This document shows, piece by piece, positions 10,267 to 30,133 of a stretch of 41,668 nucleotides of DNA. The notes under the pieces were generated by a model, which worked only from the letters and a program-made list of their open reading frames with translations, was not told the DNA's origin and did not search any database. The first letter of the stretch is position 1; each line of letters begins with the position of its first letter. The translations under genes and the position numbers were made by a program. Origin of the DNA: Acidaminococcus intestini DSM 21505 (GTDB taxonomy: Bacteria > Bacillota > Negativicutes > Acidaminococcales > Acidaminococcaceae); contig NZ_AULA01000023.1 in the NCBI RefSeq assembly GCF_000425045.1, forward strand, positions 1-41,668, given 5' to 3'.

Positions 10267-10982
10267 AACTACGGTTGCAGATCACAAAAGAATCCGGAAT
10301 CCGGTTCATTTCCCATCTGGAATATCTGAAAACCTTGGAAAAAGCCATTCGTCGGGCTCGGATTCCTGTTGCCTATTCCCAAGGCTTTAATCCCCATATG
10401 AAGTTTTCCTTGGCTTCTGCCCTGAGTGTAGGGGTGACGAGCAGGGCCGAATTTCTGGAACTATATCTGCGGGAGCCCGTTCCCCTAAAGGACCTCGTTG
10501 ATGCCCTTTCCTGTAATCTTCCCATGGGCATCCATATCGTACGTGCCGACCTAGCAGATGATAAGGCCCCGAAACTCATGGCTTCGGTTGCAGGAACGAC
10601 TTATTTGGTGAAGGTCCCCTGTGCGGCAGATCCTTCAGACGGGCTTCAGCGCTATGAAAGGGCGGAAAAGGCTCTTTATACGAAAACACATGGCAAGGGC
10701 AAGGGCAGCCCGCGCATCGTGGATGCCAAAGCTTTCGTCCCCTATGTGCAGGCTTCATATGAAGGGGGCATGCTGACGCTCCAATTTGACTGTCTGGTTT
10801 CCCAGGAAGGCAGCATGAAGGCCGCCGAGCTCTTGAAGGTCCTTCACGATGACTTCGGTCTCTCCCTTGACCTTGAAAAAGCGGATATTGCCCGTCTTGA
10901 CCTATACGCAGCAGGCCCTAATGGAGAAAAAAGGCCGCTCCTTCAGGCAGATGGTATGACGCTGGAAAGCGGCGCCCTATGA
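10263..10982 (+). CDS. Radical SAM-associated DUF2344 protein (TIGR03936-like)
   Basis: A 239-residue protein beginning MKLRLQITKESGIRFISHLE and continuing with FNPHMKFSLASALSVGVTS, hallmarks of the TIGR03936/DUF2344 family. It always accompanies the TIGR03960 radical SAM enzyme and is presumed to be its partner or substrate-binding subunit. The start is ATG at 10263 within the ATGA overlap, preceded by GGAAGG. It overlaps the next gene, RNase G, by ATGA as well. No catalytic motif is evident. Confidence 0.87.
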   Translation: MKLRLQITKESGIRFISHLEYLKTLEKAIRRARIPVAYSQGFNPHMKFSLASALSVGVTSRAEFLELYLREPVPLKDLVDALSCNLPMGIHIVRADLADDKAPKLMASVAGTTYLVKVPCAADPSDGLQRYERAEKALYTKTHGKGKGSPRIVDAKAFVPYVQASYEGGMLTLQFDCLVSQEGSMKAAELLKVLHDDFGLSLDLEKADIARLDLYAAGPNGEKRPLLQADGMTLESGAL

Positions 10983-23961: not shown

Positions 23962-24495
23962 GTGAATTATGCCGCTATCAAAAAAACAGATGTCGCCAAT
24001 GGACCGGGTGTCCGTGTCTCCCTTTTCGTAAGCGGCTGTACCCATCACTGTAAAGGCTGTTTCAATGAGGAAGCTTGGGATTTTTCTTATGGCAAGCCTT
24101 TTGACCAACATGCCGTCAAGGAAATCATGGAAGCCTTGGAACCTGACTATATCAGGGGCTTCTCCCTTTTGGGTGGGGAGCCCTTTGAACCGGAAAATCA
24201 AGCGGTTCTTGTTGGCGTCCTGCGCCATGTGCGTGAGCACTATCCTCAAAAGACCATTTGGTGCTACAGCGGCTATCTCTTTGATGAAGATATGCTGAAA
24301 GGGCGCTTGGGTGACCCATCCATTACGATGGAAATGCTGGGCTATTTGGACGTTCTTGTTGACGGGGAATTCGTCCTTTCTGAAAAGGACCTCAACCTGC
24401 GCTTCAAGGGCAGCAGGAACCAGCGAATCATTGATGTACCCCGCTCTCTCAAGGAAAAGAGGATTATCCTTTGGGACGGTGCGGAATTTGCCTAA
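23962..24495 (+). CDS. nrdG: Anaerobic ribonucleotide reductase activating protein (radical SAM)
   Basis: NrdG uses S-adenosylmethionine and a [4Fe-4S] cluster to generate the glycyl radical on NrdD. The CxxxCxxC motif is present as CTHHCKGC (about residues 30-37), followed by FNEEAWDF. A GGEPF motif (about residue 72) and a GRWSYSG-like WCYSGYLFDE segment are typical. The 177-residue length is normal. The start is GTG at 23962 after AGGGGG, 12 bases downstream of nrdD, so the two are co-expressed. Confidence 0.94.
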   Translation: MNYAAIKKTDVANGPGVRVSLFVSGCTHHCKGCFNEEAWDFSYGKPFDQHAVKEIMEALEPDYIRGFSLLGGEPFEPENQAVLVGVLRHVREHYPQKTIWCYSGYLFDEDMLKGRLGDPSITMEMLGYLDVLVDGEFVLSEKDLNLRFKGSRNQRIIDVPRSLKEKRIILWDGAEFA

Positions 24496-24503
24496 GGCAA
24501 AAC

Positions 24504-24542
24504 AGACCGTGAAGAGATGCTCCCTCTTCGCGGTCTTTTTTC
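24504..24542 (+). terminator. Intrinsic terminator after nrdG
   Basis: AGACCG, T, GAAGAG (24504-24516) pairs with CTCTTC, G, CGGTCT (24524-24536), giving 12 pairs with one internal mismatch, followed by T residues. It closes the nrdDG unit and separates it from the M20-led operon. Confidence 0.9.
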
Positions 24543-24594
24543 TATCTCCGGATGATGAAAAGCCAAAGGCGTTCTTGGAATAGGGACTTGCCTC

Positions 24595-24623
24595 TTACGC
24601 ATGGGCCCTATCCGTGATACAAT
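24595..24623 (+). promoter_or_regulatory. Candidate promoter of the five-gene M20 operon
   Basis: TACAAT at 24618-24623 (5 of 6 to the -10 consensus) lies 17 bases after TTACGC at 24595-24600, a weak -35. It is about 43 bases before the M20 start codon and directly after the nrdG terminator, so an independent unit beginning here is likely. Confidence 0.5.
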
Positions 24624-24665
24624 ACGAGTATGCGCTTCTTTTTTTATAAAGGAAGGTGGATTGAA

Positions 24666-25886
24666 ATGAACCCAGCTGCGCTGTCTGAAGAGAAAATCGT
24701 AGAAATAGGGCGGGAATGCCGTCGTTATTTTCATGCTCACCCAGAGATAAGCACCCAGGAAGCGGAAACCAGTGCCAAGATTTTTTCGCTTCTTGAAGAG
24801 TGGGGGCTCTCCCCTGTAAGGGGAACGGGCCACTATGGAGTGGCGGCGACCCTCAAAGGAAAGTCAGAGGGCCCGCTGATTGCCCTTCGCGCCGATATGG
24901 ATGCCCTGTCTGTAAGGGAAGAAACAGGGCTGCCCTTTGCTTCCCAAAATGAAGGCGTCATGCATGCCTGCGGTCACGATGTCCATATGGCAATCCTGCT
25001 TGAAACCGTCCTGCGGCTTCTGCAGCGCCGCGATGACTTGTTTGGATCGGTTCGTATCCTCTTTCAGCCCTCGGAGGAACTGTCACCTACAGGCGGCGCC
25101 CGGCTCATGATGAAGGATGGATTCCTTGACGGGGTCTCCGGTGTATTTGGCCTTCATGTCTGGCCTAGCTATCCCGTAGGTAGGATTGGCATCAAAGGTG
25201 GTCCCCTCATGGCTGCTTCTGACCGGTTCCGTGTCACCATCAAGGGGCGTACGGCCCACGCGGGGCATCCCCATGAGGGGGTTGATGCCATTTTGGCTGC
25301 CGCTGATTTTCTGCAGGAAGTCAGCCATATTGTTTCACGGCGTGTGAGCCCCCTTGATACAGCAACCATCAATGTGGGAACCATTTCCGGCGGGAGCCGT
25401 TACAATGTAGTGCCCGGTTCCTGTATCTTAGAGGGAACCATCCGGACCCTTAACGAAACAACGAGGGACCATATCCCCCAGTGGCTTGAGGGCATCCTGA
25501 AGGGACTTGAACAAAGCGCAGGCATCACTTATGAATTTAACTATTTTCGAGGTTATCCGGTCCTGATGAACTGGCCCAAGCCGGCTGAACTTGTCAGGCA
25601 GACGGCTCAGGAAACACTGGGCGAAGAGGCTGTCATGGCTCATGTGGAACCGGATCTTACGGCCGAAGACTTTGGCTTTTATCTTCAAAAAGTGCCAGGG
25701 GCCTTTTTGTGGCTAGGCTGCAGTACCCCTGGTACACCGGCTGCCGGGCTTCATAATGCTCGTTGCTGCCCTGATGAAAAGGCTCTTGAAGTGGGATCTC
25801 GGCTGATGGCTGGCGTAGTCATCAAGGCCCTCGCCGCCCTTTCAGCAGATCATGCCTTTTTCCAAAAAGATGGAAGCCTTTCTTAG
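24666..25886 (+). CDS. M20D-type amidohydrolase (N-acyl amino acid or IAA-amino acid hydrolase family)
   Basis: This family hydrolyses N-acyl amino acids with a two-metal centre. The 406-residue protein shows HAHPEIS (about 22-28), ALRADMDAL, HACGHDVHMA (about 101-110, metal ligands), FQPSEE (catalytic and metal glutamates), HVWP, GRTAHAGHPHEGVDAI and a terminal GLHNARCCPDE. The last motif usually reads LHxPxFxxDE, so it is slightly divergent. The ATG at 24666 follows AAGGAAGGTGG; the in-frame ATG at 24630 precedes that site. It heads a five-gene operon. The actual substrate (acetyl-diaminopimelate, hippurate-like or other) cannot be told from sequence alone. Confidence 0.88.
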   Translation: MNPAALSEEKIVEIGRECRRYFHAHPEISTQEAETSAKIFSLLEEWGLSPVRGTGHYGVAATLKGKSEGPLIALRADMDALSVREETGLPFASQNEGVMHACGHDVHMAILLETVLRLLQRRDDLFGSVRILFQPSEELSPTGGARLMMKDGFLDGVSGVFGLHVWPSYPVGRIGIKGGPLMAASDRFRVTIKGRTAHAGHPHEGVDAILAAADFLQEVSHIVSRRVSPLDTATINVGTISGGSRYNVVPGSCILEGTIRTLNETTRDHIPQWLEGILKGLEQSAGITYEFNYFRGYPVLMNWPKPAELVRQTAQETLGEEAVMAHVEPDLTAEDFGFYLQKVPGAFLWLGCSTPGTPAAGLHNARCCPDEKALEVGSRLMAGVVIKALAALSADHAFFQKDGSLS

Positions 25887-25922
25887 AGGCGCCGGAGTAC
25901 CAAAATGCAAAGAGGTGATTTT

Positions 25923-26855
25923 GTGAAAATATCCATTATTGGGATCGGCGGGGTCGGAGGTTACCTTGCCGGATACCTAAAAAAATATGAATCAGGGAAT
26001 CTGACCTTGATTGCTCGGAAAGATCACAAAAAGGCCCTTATTGAGCAGGGACTTTATGTGGAAAGTGATGCCTTGGGAACGCTTCATCTGCAGCTGCCTG
26101 TCGTCGAAGATGCTTCCCAGCTTCCAGCACAGGACGTCATCTTTATTTGCGTCAAGGCTGACCAATTGACGGAAGCACTGGAAAACATCAAACCCATTGT
26201 GACAGATGGAACCATCCTCGTTCCCATCATGAATGGAGCTGAGCACAAAACGTGGCTGCGCCGCATCCTTCCTGTGGGGCGTATCGTGGATACGGCCCTG
26301 TACATCAACAGTGAAATGGATGAACACTATGGAATCCATGAACGAGGCAAAGTGGTGCGTCTTTATATAGGCGGCGATGATGAAGAAGCGGTGACCGCTG
26401 TCCATAACCTGTTCATCCATCCGGGGTTTCGCTGTTATGAAACCTTGGATATCCGCCTTGAGACGTGGGAAAAGTATATTTTTAACTGTGCACTGAACCT
26501 TATTACGGCTTATTATGGAAAACCTTTGGGCAGCGTCCTTGCTGAACCAGAAAGTAAGAACCTGATCCAGGGCCTGCTTGCAGAAAGTGCGGCTGTTGCT
26601 GGCGCGATGGGTGTTATCCTGCCTAATGATCTCAAACGGGCCCATTTTGAACGTATCACCCAAAAAGAAGACCGAATGGAGACGACCTCTCTTTCCCGGG
26701 ATATCGTCTTGGGGCGAGCCGGTGAACTGGAACTGTTTTCCGGATTTCTTATTGATATGGCTAAAAAATATGCAGTTCCTGTCCCTGTGACCAAAAAAAT
26801 AGATGAAGCCATTCGTCAAAGACTTGAGACCGTCCAAAAGGAGAAAACAAGATGA
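25923..26855 (+). CDS. Ketopantoate reductase-like (ApbA/PanE family) oxidoreductase
   Basis: A 310-residue NAD(P)H-dependent reductase of the 2-dehydropantoate 2-reductase fold. There is a Rossmann motif IGIGGVGGYLAG (about 5-16), then CVKADQL (about 77-83), EKYIFNCALN carrying the presumed catalytic lysine (about 182-191) and the C-terminal TSLSRDIVLGRAGELE segment with the conserved glutamate. It could be the pantothenate enzyme, but many members act on other substrates, and no panB or panC is adjacent. The start is GTG at 25923 after AGAGGTG. It overlaps the next gene by ATGA and shares the M20 operon. Confidence 0.85.
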   Translation: MKISIIGIGGVGGYLAGYLKKYESGNLTLIARKDHKKALIEQGLYVESDALGTLHLQLPVVEDASQLPAQDVIFICVKADQLTEALENIKPIVTDGTILVPIMNGAEHKTWLRRILPVGRIVDTALYINSEMDEHYGIHERGKVVRLYIGGDDEEAVTAVHNLFIHPGFRCYETLDIRLETWEKYIFNCALNLITAYYGKPLGSVLAEPESKNLIQGLLAESAAVAGAMGVILPNDLKRAHFERITQKEDRMETTSLSRDIVLGRAGELELFSGFLIDMAKKYAVPVPVTKKIDEAIRQRLETVQKEKTR

Positions 26856-27445
26856 AAATCGTATTCGTCGGAGACAGCCTCGTCAGCTGCACCAATGTTG
26901 CCCTTGCCGCCACGTGGCCGGAAATTGCCGCCAAAAAGCTTGGCTTTACGGCTGTCAATCATGCTGCCGGCGGTCGCCTGACCATCCTTATGCGGGGGAT
27001 GTTTTGCAGCGATGCCTTGGCAGAAGCCCCGGACGGCGTCTTTATTCAATGCGGCATCAATGATGTTCTGCTTGATGAACCCCTGGAAAAGATGAAAGAA
27101 AATATCTGCGTGACCCTTGATACGGCAAAAGAAGGCGGCATCCCCCTCATTATGCTGGGAAGCCCTATCTTGGCGCGGCCGGAAAGCACGGAAAAGGGAT
27201 GGCAGCTTCCCAGTGAATTTGCTAAACATGATGCAGCCCTAAAGGCCTACCGGCAGTTCCTCAAACAAGAGGCTGCACGCCGTGACCTTCCTTTCTTTGA
27301 TATGGAGGCCGTATTTGAAGCAATCCAAGAAAAAGCCAGTGAAAATCTCCTTGTTGATGGTATCCATCCAAATGAAAAAGGATATGCCGCGCTTGCCGAT
27401 GCGTTTGTGGACTTTTTCCGTCCTCTTATGGGAGATCGTGTATGA
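26852..27445 (+). CDS. SGNH/GDSL-family hydrolase
   Basis: A 197-residue lipase/esterase-like enzyme without a signal peptide, so probably cytoplasmic. The family blocks are in order: GDSL (about 7-10, nucleophile serine), HAAGGRL (block II glycine), QCGINDVL (block III asparagine) and DGIHPNEKGY (block V Asp and His). Substrates for such small SGNH proteins range from acyl esters to thioesters and acetylated sugars. It overlaps its neighbours on both sides by four bases, which indicates translational coupling with the reductase and the thioesterase. Confidence 0.87.
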   Translation: MKIVFVGDSLVSCTNVALAATWPEIAAKKLGFTAVNHAAGGRLTILMRGMFCSDALAEAPDGVFIQCGINDVLLDEPLEKMKENICVTLDTAKEGGIPLIMLGSPILARPESTEKGWQLPSEFAKHDAALKAYRQFLKQEAARRDLPFFDMEAVFEAIQEKASENLLVDGIHPNEKGYAALADAFVDFFRPLMGDRV

Positions 27446-27834
27446 GCCGTGATGTATCCGTCATGACAAGGTCTGTCATGCTCAAGATGGCCAATTCAGC
27501 GGGTCATCTTTTTGGCGGTACCCTGATGGCCTGGATGGATGAACTTTCGGGCATAACAGCACACCGTTATGTCTGGACAAGGGTGACAACGGCTGCTGTA
27601 AAGGGCATGAATTTCTATGTGCCTATTCACTATGGCCGTGTCCTTGAACTTGAAGGCCGTGTTGTTCATGTGGGCCGCTCTTCTTTGGATGTGGAAATCA
27701 AGGCCTATCTGGAACCCGTGGAAGAAGGAGGTGAGCGGGTTCTTGCCGCTGACGCCGTTTTTGTCTATGTGTCCATCAGTGAAACGGGCCGCCCCCTTCC
27801 CATTCGGCGGCATCTGGAAGGAGAAGAACCATGA
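27442..27834 (+). CDS. Hotdog-fold acyl-CoA thioesterase (YciA/BACH type)
   Basis: A 130-residue hotdog thioesterase. The motif MANSAGHLFGGTLMAWMDELSG (about 14-35, shown in parts: NSAGHLFGG and MAWMDE) contains the asparagine and aspartate that typify the YciA/BACH clade. GRSSLDVEIKAY is the typical mid-strand. Known members hydrolyse acyl-CoA to acid and CoA. It overlaps the SGNH gene and the following ferredoxin gene by four bases each. Substrate chain length is not predictable here. Confidence 0.87.
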   Translation: MSRDVSVMTRSVMLKMANSAGHLFGGTLMAWMDELSGITAHRYVWTRVTTAAVKGMNFYVPIHYGRVLELEGRVVHVGRSSLDVEIKAYLEPVEEGGERVLAADAVFVYVSISETGRPLPIRRHLEGEEP

Positions 27835-28574
27835 TTCATTACTTTACAGGGACTGGCAATTCCTATTTTATTGCCTCCCAACTGGCAACATCCCTGAACC
27901 TTTCCCTTCACGCCCTGAAAGAGGGCCCTGTAGAGGATCGGGATCCTGTTGTGGGAATCGTCTTTCCCGTCTATTTTGGGGATGCACCGGACTTTGTGAC
28001 AGACGCGTTGGAAGGTCTCACGTTTCCCGGGACCCCTTATCTTTTTGCTGTAGCCACAAGTGGAACGAGTTTCGGTGCGGCTTTTCAGAGTATTGACAAT
28101 GCCCTGCAAAAAAAGGGGCAACACCTTGCCTTCGCTGCCCATCTTGCCATGGTGGCAAATAGTACGCCTGCCGTGCGCCAGCATATTGCCTATGCTTATG
28201 AAAAACTCGTGACGGCGGAGAAAGCCCTGCCCCAACTTGTCCAAAAGATCAAGGACAGGACCTCTGACCGGTCCCTCATCAAGGGCTCCCTCATGGCTTC
28301 CTTTTTCCGGACTTCCTTGGGGAAGTCCCTGGGCAGACGCTGGTTCCGTCTTGGTGTGGATGCGGCGCGCTGCGTCAAGTGTGGTCTTTGCGTGCGCCTT
28401 TGTCCGGTAGGGAACCTATCCTTGGGCATGGATGCGGTTCATATGGGGAAAACCTGTACGTACTGCCTTGCCTGCCTTCACGCCTGCCCCAAACAGGCCA
28501 TTACTATTCGGGAGCGGCACATCCTGAAGGAAGATCAGTACCATCATCCCAATGTCCCATTTACAGGACGGTAA
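27831..28574 (+). CDS. EFR1-type flavodoxin-like protein with two 4Fe-4S clusters
   Basis: The 247-residue protein begins MIHYFTGTGNSYFIA, an FMN-binding flavodoxin motif (TGTGNS, about 6-11), and ends with two ferredoxin-type cluster motifs, CVKCGLCVRLCP and CTYCLACLHACP (about 182-222). This EFR1 or EFR-like arrangement is common in anaerobes and probably carries electrons between a low-potential donor and an unknown partner. It is the last gene of the five-gene unit and is followed by a strong terminator. An electron-transfer protein in a set of hydrolases is unexpected. Confidence 0.88.
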   Translation: MIHYFTGTGNSYFIASQLATSLNLSLHALKEGPVEDRDPVVGIVFPVYFGDAPDFVTDALEGLTFPGTPYLFAVATSGTSFGAAFQSIDNALQKKGQHLAFAAHLAMVANSTPAVRQHIAYAYEKLVTAEKALPQLVQKIKDRTSDRSLIKGSLMASFFRTSLGKSLGRRWFRLGVDAARCVKCGLCVRLCPVGNLSLGMDAVHMGKTCTYCLACLHACPKQAITIRERHILKEDQYHHPNVPFTGR

Positions 28575-28617
28575 AAAAAGAGGATCCCTTTCCCAAAATG
28601 GAGAGAGATCCTTTTTT
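28573..28617. terminator. Bidirectional terminator between convergent genes
   Basis: AAAAAAAG, A, GGATC (28573-28586) pairs with GATCC and TTTTTT (28607-28617) around a loosely paired loop. The A-tract and T-tract allow termination from both sides. It lies between the ferredoxin gene (plus) and the NSS transporter gene (minus). Confidence 0.85.
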
Positions 28618-28624
28618 GATGTCG

Positions 28625-30100
28625 TTACTCTGTTTTGCGGCCCGTACTTCCATAGATGATGAAACCGAGGAAGCAGGCTGCCATGAAGAGCCATTTTACA
28701 AAGACGGCGAGCCCTTGGGGCATGAACATATCGTAATACCCCTTGAGGTAGATGACCAGGATAAAGAACGGCAGGCCGTACATGAGGTAATTCTTGATGC
28801 CGGAAGGGACATTCATGCCCGTTCCTTCATTGGCTTCTGCCAGGAATCGTTCCCAGCCCCAGCCATTTTTCTTTGTGCAGAAGAGGACAAAAACAAGGCT
28901 TCCTAGTGGAAGCAGGTTATTTGATACGATGAAGTCTTCTAAGTCAAGGACGCCGGATCCCGGTCCCAGAGGCTGGAAGTCCGACCAGAGGTTGAAACCC
29001 AGAACGCAGGGAAGCGATAGGGAAATAATGAGGACAATGTTGATGAGGACGCTCTTGCGACGGGTCCATCCCTTGAGGTTCATGCCAAAGGCAATGATGT
29101 TTTCGAAGACGGCAATGACGGTTGACAGTGCAGCAAAGGAGAGGAAGATGAAAAAGAGCATGCCCCAAATCTGTCCGCCGGGCATCTTTACAAAGAGGTT
29201 TGGAATGGTGAGAAAGATCAGGCTTGGTCCTGCATCAGGCTTGATGCCATAGGCAAAGCAGGCCGGGATGATGATGAATCCTGCCATGAGGGCAACAAAG
29301 GTATCAAGTGCCGTAATGGTGACCGCTTCTCCGAGGAGACTGCGGCCATGGGGAAGATAGGCCCCAAAGATCAGCATGGCTCCGATTCCGATGGAGAGGG
29401 TGAAAAATGCCTGGCTCATTGCGGCGAAGATGACATTGCCCCAGCCAATTTTTGCAAGGGCATCAATGTTCGGTACCAGATAAAAACGGATCCCCGCTTC
29501 GGCTCCCTCAAGGAAGAGGGAATGGACGGCAAGGATGACCATGAGGCCTAGGAGAAGGACCATCATAAATTTGGTAATGCGCTCCACTCCATTTTGGATT
29601 CCGAAGAAGCAGACCACAAAACCAAATAGGCAGGCAAGAATCATCCAAAACCCCATGGTCCTGGGGCTTTGGAGCATGGCTCCAAAGGTTGCGACGACGG
29701 TCTTCGGCGCGGCGCCTACAAAAGTTCCGATGAAATGGAGATAACAGTAATAGAGCATCCAACCCGTGACGGTCGTGTAGTACATCATGAGCATATAGCA
29801 TCCTATAATGCTGATCCATTTGAAATGATGCCAGCGGGTTCCCTTTGGTTCCAGGATATCAAAGCTGCGGGCCGCACTGCGCCGGCTGCCGCGGCCAATA
29901 CCGAATTCACAGATCATCACCGGAATGCCCATGATCAGCAGGAAAAAAAGATAGATGAGGATAAATGCGGCACCGCCAAACTGGCCGCAGAGATAGGGAA
30001 ATTTCCAGACATTCCCGATGCCAATGGCGCATCCAGCGGATACAAGGATGAAACCAATGCGGGTGGCAAAAGAGTCCATAGGATTATTGCTGTCGTTCAT
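28625..30100 (-). CDS. Sodium-dependent transporter, NSS (SNF) family
   Basis: A 491-residue polytopic protein with about 12 hydrophobic segments. The first helix has the NSS sodium/substrate-site signature GFILVSAGCAIGIGNVWKFPY, with unwound SAGCAIGIGN (about residues 21-30). Bacterial relatives such as LeuT and MhsT import amino acids with sodium. The short helix 6 region (GIGAMLIFGAYLP) is also typical. ATG at 30100 is preferred; GTG at 30109 belongs to the AGGTG ribosome site. It lies 33 bases downstream of the small proline-rich membrane protein and is probably co-transcribed with it. Substrate cannot be told. Confidence 0.92.
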   Translation of the reverse strand: MNDSNNPMDSFATRIGFILVSAGCAIGIGNVWKFPYLCGQFGGAAFILIYLFFLLIMGIPVMICEFGIGRGSRRSAARSFDILEPKGTRWHHFKWISIIGCYMLMMYYTTVTGWMLYYCYLHFIGTFVGAAPKTVVATFGAMLQSPRTMGFWMILACLFGFVVCFFGIQNGVERITKFMMVLLLGLMVILAVHSLFLEGAEAGIRFYLVPNIDALAKIGWGNVIFAAMSQAFFTLSIGIGAMLIFGAYLPHGRSLLGEAVTITALDTFVALMAGFIIIPACFAYGIKPDAGPSLIFLTIPNLFVKMPGGQIWGMLFFIFLSFAALSTVIAVFENIIAFGMNLKGWTRRKSVLINIVLIISLSLPCVLGFNLWSDFQPLGPGSGVLDLEDFIVSNNLLPLGSLVFVLFCTKKNGWGWERFLAEANEGTGMNVPSGIKNYLMYGLPFFILVIYLKGYYDMFMPQGLAVFVKWLFMAACFLGFIIYGSTGRKTE

Positions 30101-30133
30101 GCTAGACACCTGCTTTCTTTATAAAGAGTGGAA

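Follow-up and report, generated by a model that had tools for sequence, protein, structure and literature searches.

A putative operon of three conserved hydrolases and two optional redox genes in Acidaminococcus

Gene content and borders of the unit

We analysed a stretch of 41,668 nucleotides from Acidaminococcus intestini DSM 21505 (the window, meaning the whole stretch), in which five intact forward-strand open reading frames at 24630–28574 form a putative operon. Translations of these frames and profile scans place the products in the families that an earlier sequence-only reading of the window had named: an M20D amidohydrolase, a PanE/ApbA-type reductase, an SGNH hydrolase, a hot-dog (4HBT) acyl-CoA thioesterase and an EFR1 protein. 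The genome that carries the window (G000, 2.28 Mb) was compared with eight others (G001–G008), and all counts for the genus refer to these nine Acidaminococcus species genomes. Two start sites were revised: homologues of M20D align from 24666, upstream of which lies GGAAGGTGG, and for PanE a GTG at 25923 is favoured by homologues and ribosome-binding sites.

The terminators that had been described on both sides of the unit are indeed present. Upstream, a strong terminator lies within a stretch (24490–24545) that folds at z -6.0, and a terminator-like hairpin closes the downstream border. An Rfam search of the window gave no match.

The earlier description of a promoter belonging to the unit itself holds in part. 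The element TGNTANAAT occurs upstream of M20D in eight of the nine genomes, 34–69 nucleotides before the ATG, and is missing from G007; in 300 segment-swap shuffles it was recovered in a mean of 0.10 genomes and a maximum of one. Because this extended -10 motif was picked post hoc, after the sequences had been seen, and because some of the genomes are close relatives, it is good rather than formal evidence. A generic hexamer scan, on the other hand, gave no promoter upstream of the unit; the four that it placed in the region are no more than in shuffles (5.1). Together with the terminators, the recurring element makes it a well supported prediction that the unit is a separate operon driven by a promoter of its own.

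Table 1. Predicted features of the unit and its borders in the window
Feature	Position	Strand	Basis and remarks
Intrinsic terminator, upstream border, after nrdG	24504..24536	+	13-pair stem and T run
Extended -10 element TGATACAAT	24615..24623	+	42 nucleotides before the M20D ATG; no convincing -35 by eye here
M20D amidohydrolase (TIGR01891), 406 amino acids from the corrected start	24666..25886	+	Family scans, PDB matches, motifs
PanE/ApbA-type 2-oxoacid reductase, GTG start; optional, 4/9 genus genomes	25923..26855	+	Family scans, residues
SGNH/GDSL hydrolase	26852..27445	+	No leader peptide seen by eye; GDSL, GG, GIND and DGIHP blocks; matches to the SGNH fold
Hot-dog (4HBT) acyl-CoA thioesterase, nearest to YciA/BACH types	27442..27834	+	Pfam 4HBT; MDE motif
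EFR1 family protein, flavodoxin-like part and two ferredoxin 4Cys motifs	27831..28574	+	NF038196
Terminator-like hairpin, downstream border	28576..28617	either	Fold z -4.5 on +, -2.8 on -

A three-gene core with two optional members

In order to follow the unit through the genus, each of the five proteins was searched against 63 genomes of the order, and the regions of all eight other genus genomes were read. M20D, SGNH and the thioesterase are clustered in that order in all nine genomes, the thioesterase of G006 running off its contig. PanE lies between M20D and SGNH in four of them (G000, G005, G006 and G007). In the five genomes without PanE at the locus, SGNH starts 12–16 bases after M20D; a search for PanE at E ≤ 0.001 found no match anywhere in G001–G004, and in G008 nothing closer than a 27% relative away from the locus. 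EFR1 follows the thioesterase in seven genomes, the case of G006 being deduced from two contig ends that hold consecutive parts of the thioesterase and then EFR1. Its gene lies about 14 kb away in G008, beside symporters; G002 has none at the locus, the closest match (39%) lying on a different contig. M20D, SGNH and the thioesterase are thus the genus-wide core, and PanE and EFR1 are optional members.

The core cluster is still found in all nine genomes even though flanking genes have changed and the other SGNH proteins retain 53–65% identity with that of the window. Pairwise ratios of nonsynonymous to synonymous substitution rates (dN/dS), estimated at 0.03–0.21 for M20D, SGNH and the thioesterase over four close pairs, show purifying selection on the core genes; in more distant pairs the estimates reach or approach saturation.

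This distribution does not bear out the proposal that the five activities make up one pathway, PanE being absent from the locus in five genomes and EFR1 split off or elsewhere in two. With two of the five parts optional, a five-activity pathway need not be sought. A sequence of steps in which an N-acyl unit is released, an ester or thioester is cut and PanE and EFR1 carry out a reduction is in our judgement highly improbable. All five genes do stand together in the window, in G005, in G007 and, across the contig break, in G006, but the hydrolases persist in the genomes where PanE finds no match or only the distant relative, and in G008 and G002 without EFR1 beside them. PanE-family enzymes take their electrons from NAD(P)H and not from ferredoxin, which we also count against such a pathway.

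Properties of the three hydrolases

The M20D protein scores 369.6 bits against TIGR01891 (cut-off 153.75), and its HACGHD, QPSEE and GLH motifs are invariant or nearly so in ten aligned sequences. Its closest PDB matches are YxeP (288 bits) and 4ewt (248 bits), ahead of an N-alpha-acyl-glutamine aminoacylase and, with the same 181 bits, an IAA-amino acid hydrolase. A homologue in G062 (47% identity) is followed by an AbgT-family permease. On the basis of the likeness to YxeP and the aminoacylase and of this permease, salvage of acyl-amino acids is a possible role for the M20D step.

The Ser, Gly, Asn and His blocks of SGNH are present in the window copy and in seven of eight homologues, and its predicted structure, with a predicted local distance difference test (pLDDT) score of 71.2, matches the general SGNH fold only. 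The thioesterase scores 62.3 bits against the 4HBT Pfam family (cut-off 20.6), and its MDE motif is invariant in seven aligned sequences.

Gene junctions

Overlaps of four bases are found at three junctions of the unit (26852–26855, 27442–27445 and 27831–27834). Overlaps of -4 and -1 are common among prokaryotes and bring about coupled translation, according to the available parts of PMC6728339 and PMC10666635. The sequence-only reading had taken the overlaps of the last four genes as a sign of stoichiometric co-translation; the overlaps stand for the window, and the stoichiometry is unsupported as a rule. Six of the 30 listed same-strand junctions of the window are -4, and three of these lie outside the unit, hgdA/hgdB among them (the list omits genes with uncertain starts, so that some of its pairs are not adjacent genes, and it lacks the junction at 10979). 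The thioesterase/EFR1 junction is -4 in the window only, and the remaining five measurements give +17, +37, +37, +37 and +73; the distance in G006 is absent from the junction table owing to the contig break. Since -4 overlaps recur elsewhere in the window and that of thioesterase and EFR1 is found only here, fixed stoichiometry does not follow, and we rejected the overlaps as evidence for it.

The junction inside the core is kept better. SGNH and the thioesterase overlap by -4 in seven of the nine genomes, by -1 in G005 (-4 if translation began at an ATG three bases upstream), and are spaced by +5 in G007. The PanE/SGNH junction is -4 in three of four genomes and -1 in G005.

Distribution outside the genus

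In the 54 genomes that represent the rest of the order, a search with SGNH gave no match at E ≤ 0.001. At E ≤ 1e-6 it matches in 111 of 350 class genomes, of which 102 belong to other genera; at 15 loci fetched from these 102 genomes, none of the other four genes was present in the 11–14 kb read (15/15). A scan of genome contigs with EFR1 gave one Acidaminococcus record and one weak match of 48 residues. A genome of another genus (G029, 63% complete) carries, in this order, hgdCAB, an open reading frame of 225 amino acids on the other strand, a MATE gene, M20D (56%) and PanE (39%).

The redox genes and the region upstream

Upstream of the unit the genes are ordered like a 2-hydroxyglutarate operon (gctAB, gcdA, hgdCAB), followed by nrdDG. 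The hgd, gct and gcd names were assigned from order and size, and the order agrees with the 2-hydroxyglutarate fermentation operon that the accessible text of PMC3035267 reports for A. fermentans VR4.

PanE scores 184.1 bits against TIGR00745 (cut-off 141.35), and alignments show that it keeps the W-x-K...N, NG and S...D...E positions; its Lys, Asn and Glu positions we take to be the catalytic residues of the family. PanB (PF02548) has a match in none of the nine genus genomes, in a search whose control was positive in 11 of 14. De novo pantothenate synthesis consequently fails as a role and was rejected; the PanE label is misleading in these genomes, and the protein is probably a reductase of another 2-oxoacid to its 2-hydroxyacid.

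One such role would be that of an (R)-2-hydroxyacid dehydrogenase feeding a 2-hydroxyacyl-CoA dehydratase system, which we hold to be unlikely. In addition to the missing PanB match, the vicinity of hgdCAB to the M20D-PanE pair in G029 points that way, as do relatives of PanE (35–41%) that stand beside hgdCAB-like clusters at three class loci (L217, L219 and L220) among 12 fetched from 55 class genomes with a match, several neighbour names having been given by eye; we treat this as a lead, not a result. Its PDB matches also include 3wfi, 3wfj and 5x20, which are listed as 2-dehydropantoate 2-reductase and which we take to be D-mandelate dehydrogenase. The other nine fetched loci, however, are without an hgdCAB-like cluster, at four loci of the PanE family the neighbour is a gene of 636–669 amino acids, alike by eye, and G001–G004 are without a PanE match. 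For the last reason PanE was rejected as a genus-wide 2-hydroxyglutarate dehydrogenase.

Three further arrangements were seen around relatives of PanE. The PanE-like reductases at L217, L219 and L220 (G225, G185 and G162) lie by the hgdCAB-like genes and a gene of CoA-transferase size. PanE occurs as a tandem pair in five class genomes of the family of these three loci. At L215:8716-13577 (G132) a relative lies by RraA-type aldolase-like, transporter and aconitase-like genes on the same strand, named by eye.

EFR1 scores 168.1 bits against NF038196 (cut-off 75). Its TGNS flavodoxin-type loop and all eight Cys are invariant in nine aligned sequences, and its predicted structure is poor (mean pLDDT 52.1). 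The protein is likely a low-potential electron carrier. With the dehydratase genes and nrdDG directly upstream, it might, from the end of a hydrolase operon, serve as the low-potential donor for the upstream radical enzymes, namely the NrdG activase or the activator of 2-hydroxyglutaryl-CoA dehydratase; flavodoxin is another donor for the dehydratase. We consider this distinctly unlikely, as EFR1 shows the weakest conservation within the unit (45–47% identity from the window to G007; dN/dS about 0.2 in the three close pairs compared) and lies apart from the other genes in two of nine genomes, while NrdG stays 76–84% identical to the window copy.

Interpretation of the unit

The unit gives the impression of an ordinary metabolic operon, though an undescribed one. 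Term searches of the open-access literature, with most subscription papers outside its scope, gave no description of such a gene set. Our preference, a tentative one, is for a genus-specific cytosolic deacylation module that acts on acyl groups in amide, ester and thioester linkage and has redox add-ons; its joint function, its cytosolic site and its substrates are what we infer. The constant core would comprise three unrelated acyl hydrolases of three folds, of which M20D would cut N-acyl (amide) bonds, SGNH would cut O-acyl (ester, perhaps thioester) bonds and the YciA/BACH-like thioesterase would cut acyl-CoA. Together they would liberate amino acids and free carboxylic acids, their targets being acylated amino acids or other small acyl conjugates. 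These could be imported as nutrients or arise within the cell, where glutamate fermentation, whose genes lie just upstream, proceeds via glutaconyl-, crotonyl- and butyryl-CoA in the part of PMC5861303 available to us. The PanE-type reductase and EFR1 would be add-ons carried by some species and dispensed with by others. This reading is supported by the presence of the core in all nine genomes, the kept -4 overlap of SGNH and the thioesterase in seven, the extended -10 element in eight, the low dN/dS and the intact motifs, and for M20D also by its closest PDB relatives and the permease next to the G062 homologue.

Several observations weigh against it. nrdG precedes the unit in all nine genomes (in G003 at a distance of 1.7 kb) and an SNF-family symporter stands at or near its far end in eight, all but G005, so that genes outside the unit are as conserved as the core. 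Because local synteny is strong in general, synteny alone says little on function, and clustering within the genus is weak evidence of joint function. M20D has 12 M20-type matches in G000, and 8–15 across the nine genomes, so the M20D of this unit need not be special. In G002, the genome without EFR1 at the locus, the block-III Asn of SGNH (L018:10158-10754) is replaced by Arg (GMRD for GMND). The companionship of the families in related genomes, which the sequence-only reading had named as a test of the functional link, gives a mixed outcome. It holds for the three hydrolases inside the genus, but among the matches listed in the 350 class genomes, no two of M20D, SGNH and the thioesterase are 5 kb or less apart outside Acidaminococcus. 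Closest to an exception come G100, where a weak partial SGNH match lies 5.6 kb from an M20D, and G102, with a pair at 11 kb. Places were compared by eye at thresholds of 1e-6, 1e-18 and 1e-105, with at most five M20D candidates scored per genome.

The main rival, which we also regard as possible, is a loosely assembled housekeeping operon, in which unrelated enzymes would share a promoter by history within a syntenic neighbourhood that genes drift into and out of. PanE at four of nine loci, EFR1 beside the thioesterase at seven, neighbours outside the unit that are about equally conserved, the -4 junctions elsewhere in the window and, among the class matches listed, the want of a hydrolase pair within 5 kb outside the genus all speak for it. 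Such drift accounts less well for a core of three kept in nine of nine genomes, for the recurring promoter element and the mostly kept SGNH/thioesterase overlap, and for the acyl-bond hydrolysis chemistry common to all three core families.

A narrower variant would be a dedicated metabolite-repair operon. Its three hydrolases would clear amide-, ester- and thioester-bound acyl adducts, left on amino acids and other small molecules by the reactive glutaconyl-, crotonyl- and butyryl-CoA of the 2-hydroxyglutarate fermentation, and some species would have the redox add-ons; this we rate as improbable. If the hydrolases of the proposed deacylation module do cooperate, they would point to one of two roles in a gut glutamate fermenter: feeding on acylated amino acids, or clearing up acyl-CoA damage.

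Neighbouring genes

The symporter downstream of the unit in the window is a convergent SNF-family sodium symporter (28625–30109), and four genus genomes have two copies of it. Before nrdD in several other Acidaminococcus genomes, a gene of transporter size and an M20-like gene are found at L011:1089-3765 and L013:1908-4540, and genes of similar sizes at L014, L016 and L018. The DcuC family was assigned in L011, the sole locus scanned; the hgdB-nrdD gap is too short for these genes in the window and in G006.

Comparison with known systems

The unit resembles several characterized systems in its parts. PanE shares its family score and catalytic positions with ketopantoate reductase and differs in its genomic setting, PanB having a match in none of the nine genomes. 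SGNH shares the catalytic blocks of the TesA/GDSL esterases, and its fold matches include E. coli thioesterase I, but it reaches 19.1 bits where the TesA cut-off is 270 and is 14–23% identical to the listed solved structures. The thioesterase has the 4HBT hot-dog domain with the GG...MDE motif of the YciA/BACH thioesterases, and it scores 61.9 bits against the YciA equivalog (NF007970), whose cut-off is 162.

For M20D, two systems can be compared. AbgA/AbgB/AbgT, which serves p-aminobenzoyl-glutamate utilisation, places an M20D hydrolase beside an AbgT permease, as does the G062 homologue; the five genes here, in contrast, include no permease, and the window M20D reaches 124 bits to 3io1 as against 288 to YxeP. 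The N-acetylcysteine deacetylases ScmP, YhaA and YtnL of Bacillus subtilis are metal-dependent enzymes that free an amino acid from its N-acyl form, as described in the portion of PMC12757645 at hand. YxeP appears to be the same protein as ScmP, since that text speaks of the 'formerly yxe gene cluster'. The scm cluster, as far as the same text goes, pairs ScmP with the acetyltransferase ScmL and the monooxygenase ScmK, and neither kind of enzyme is among the five genes here. One of the B. subtilis deacetylases, going by the same portion, is encoded in an operon, and the best PDB match of the window M20D is YxeP.

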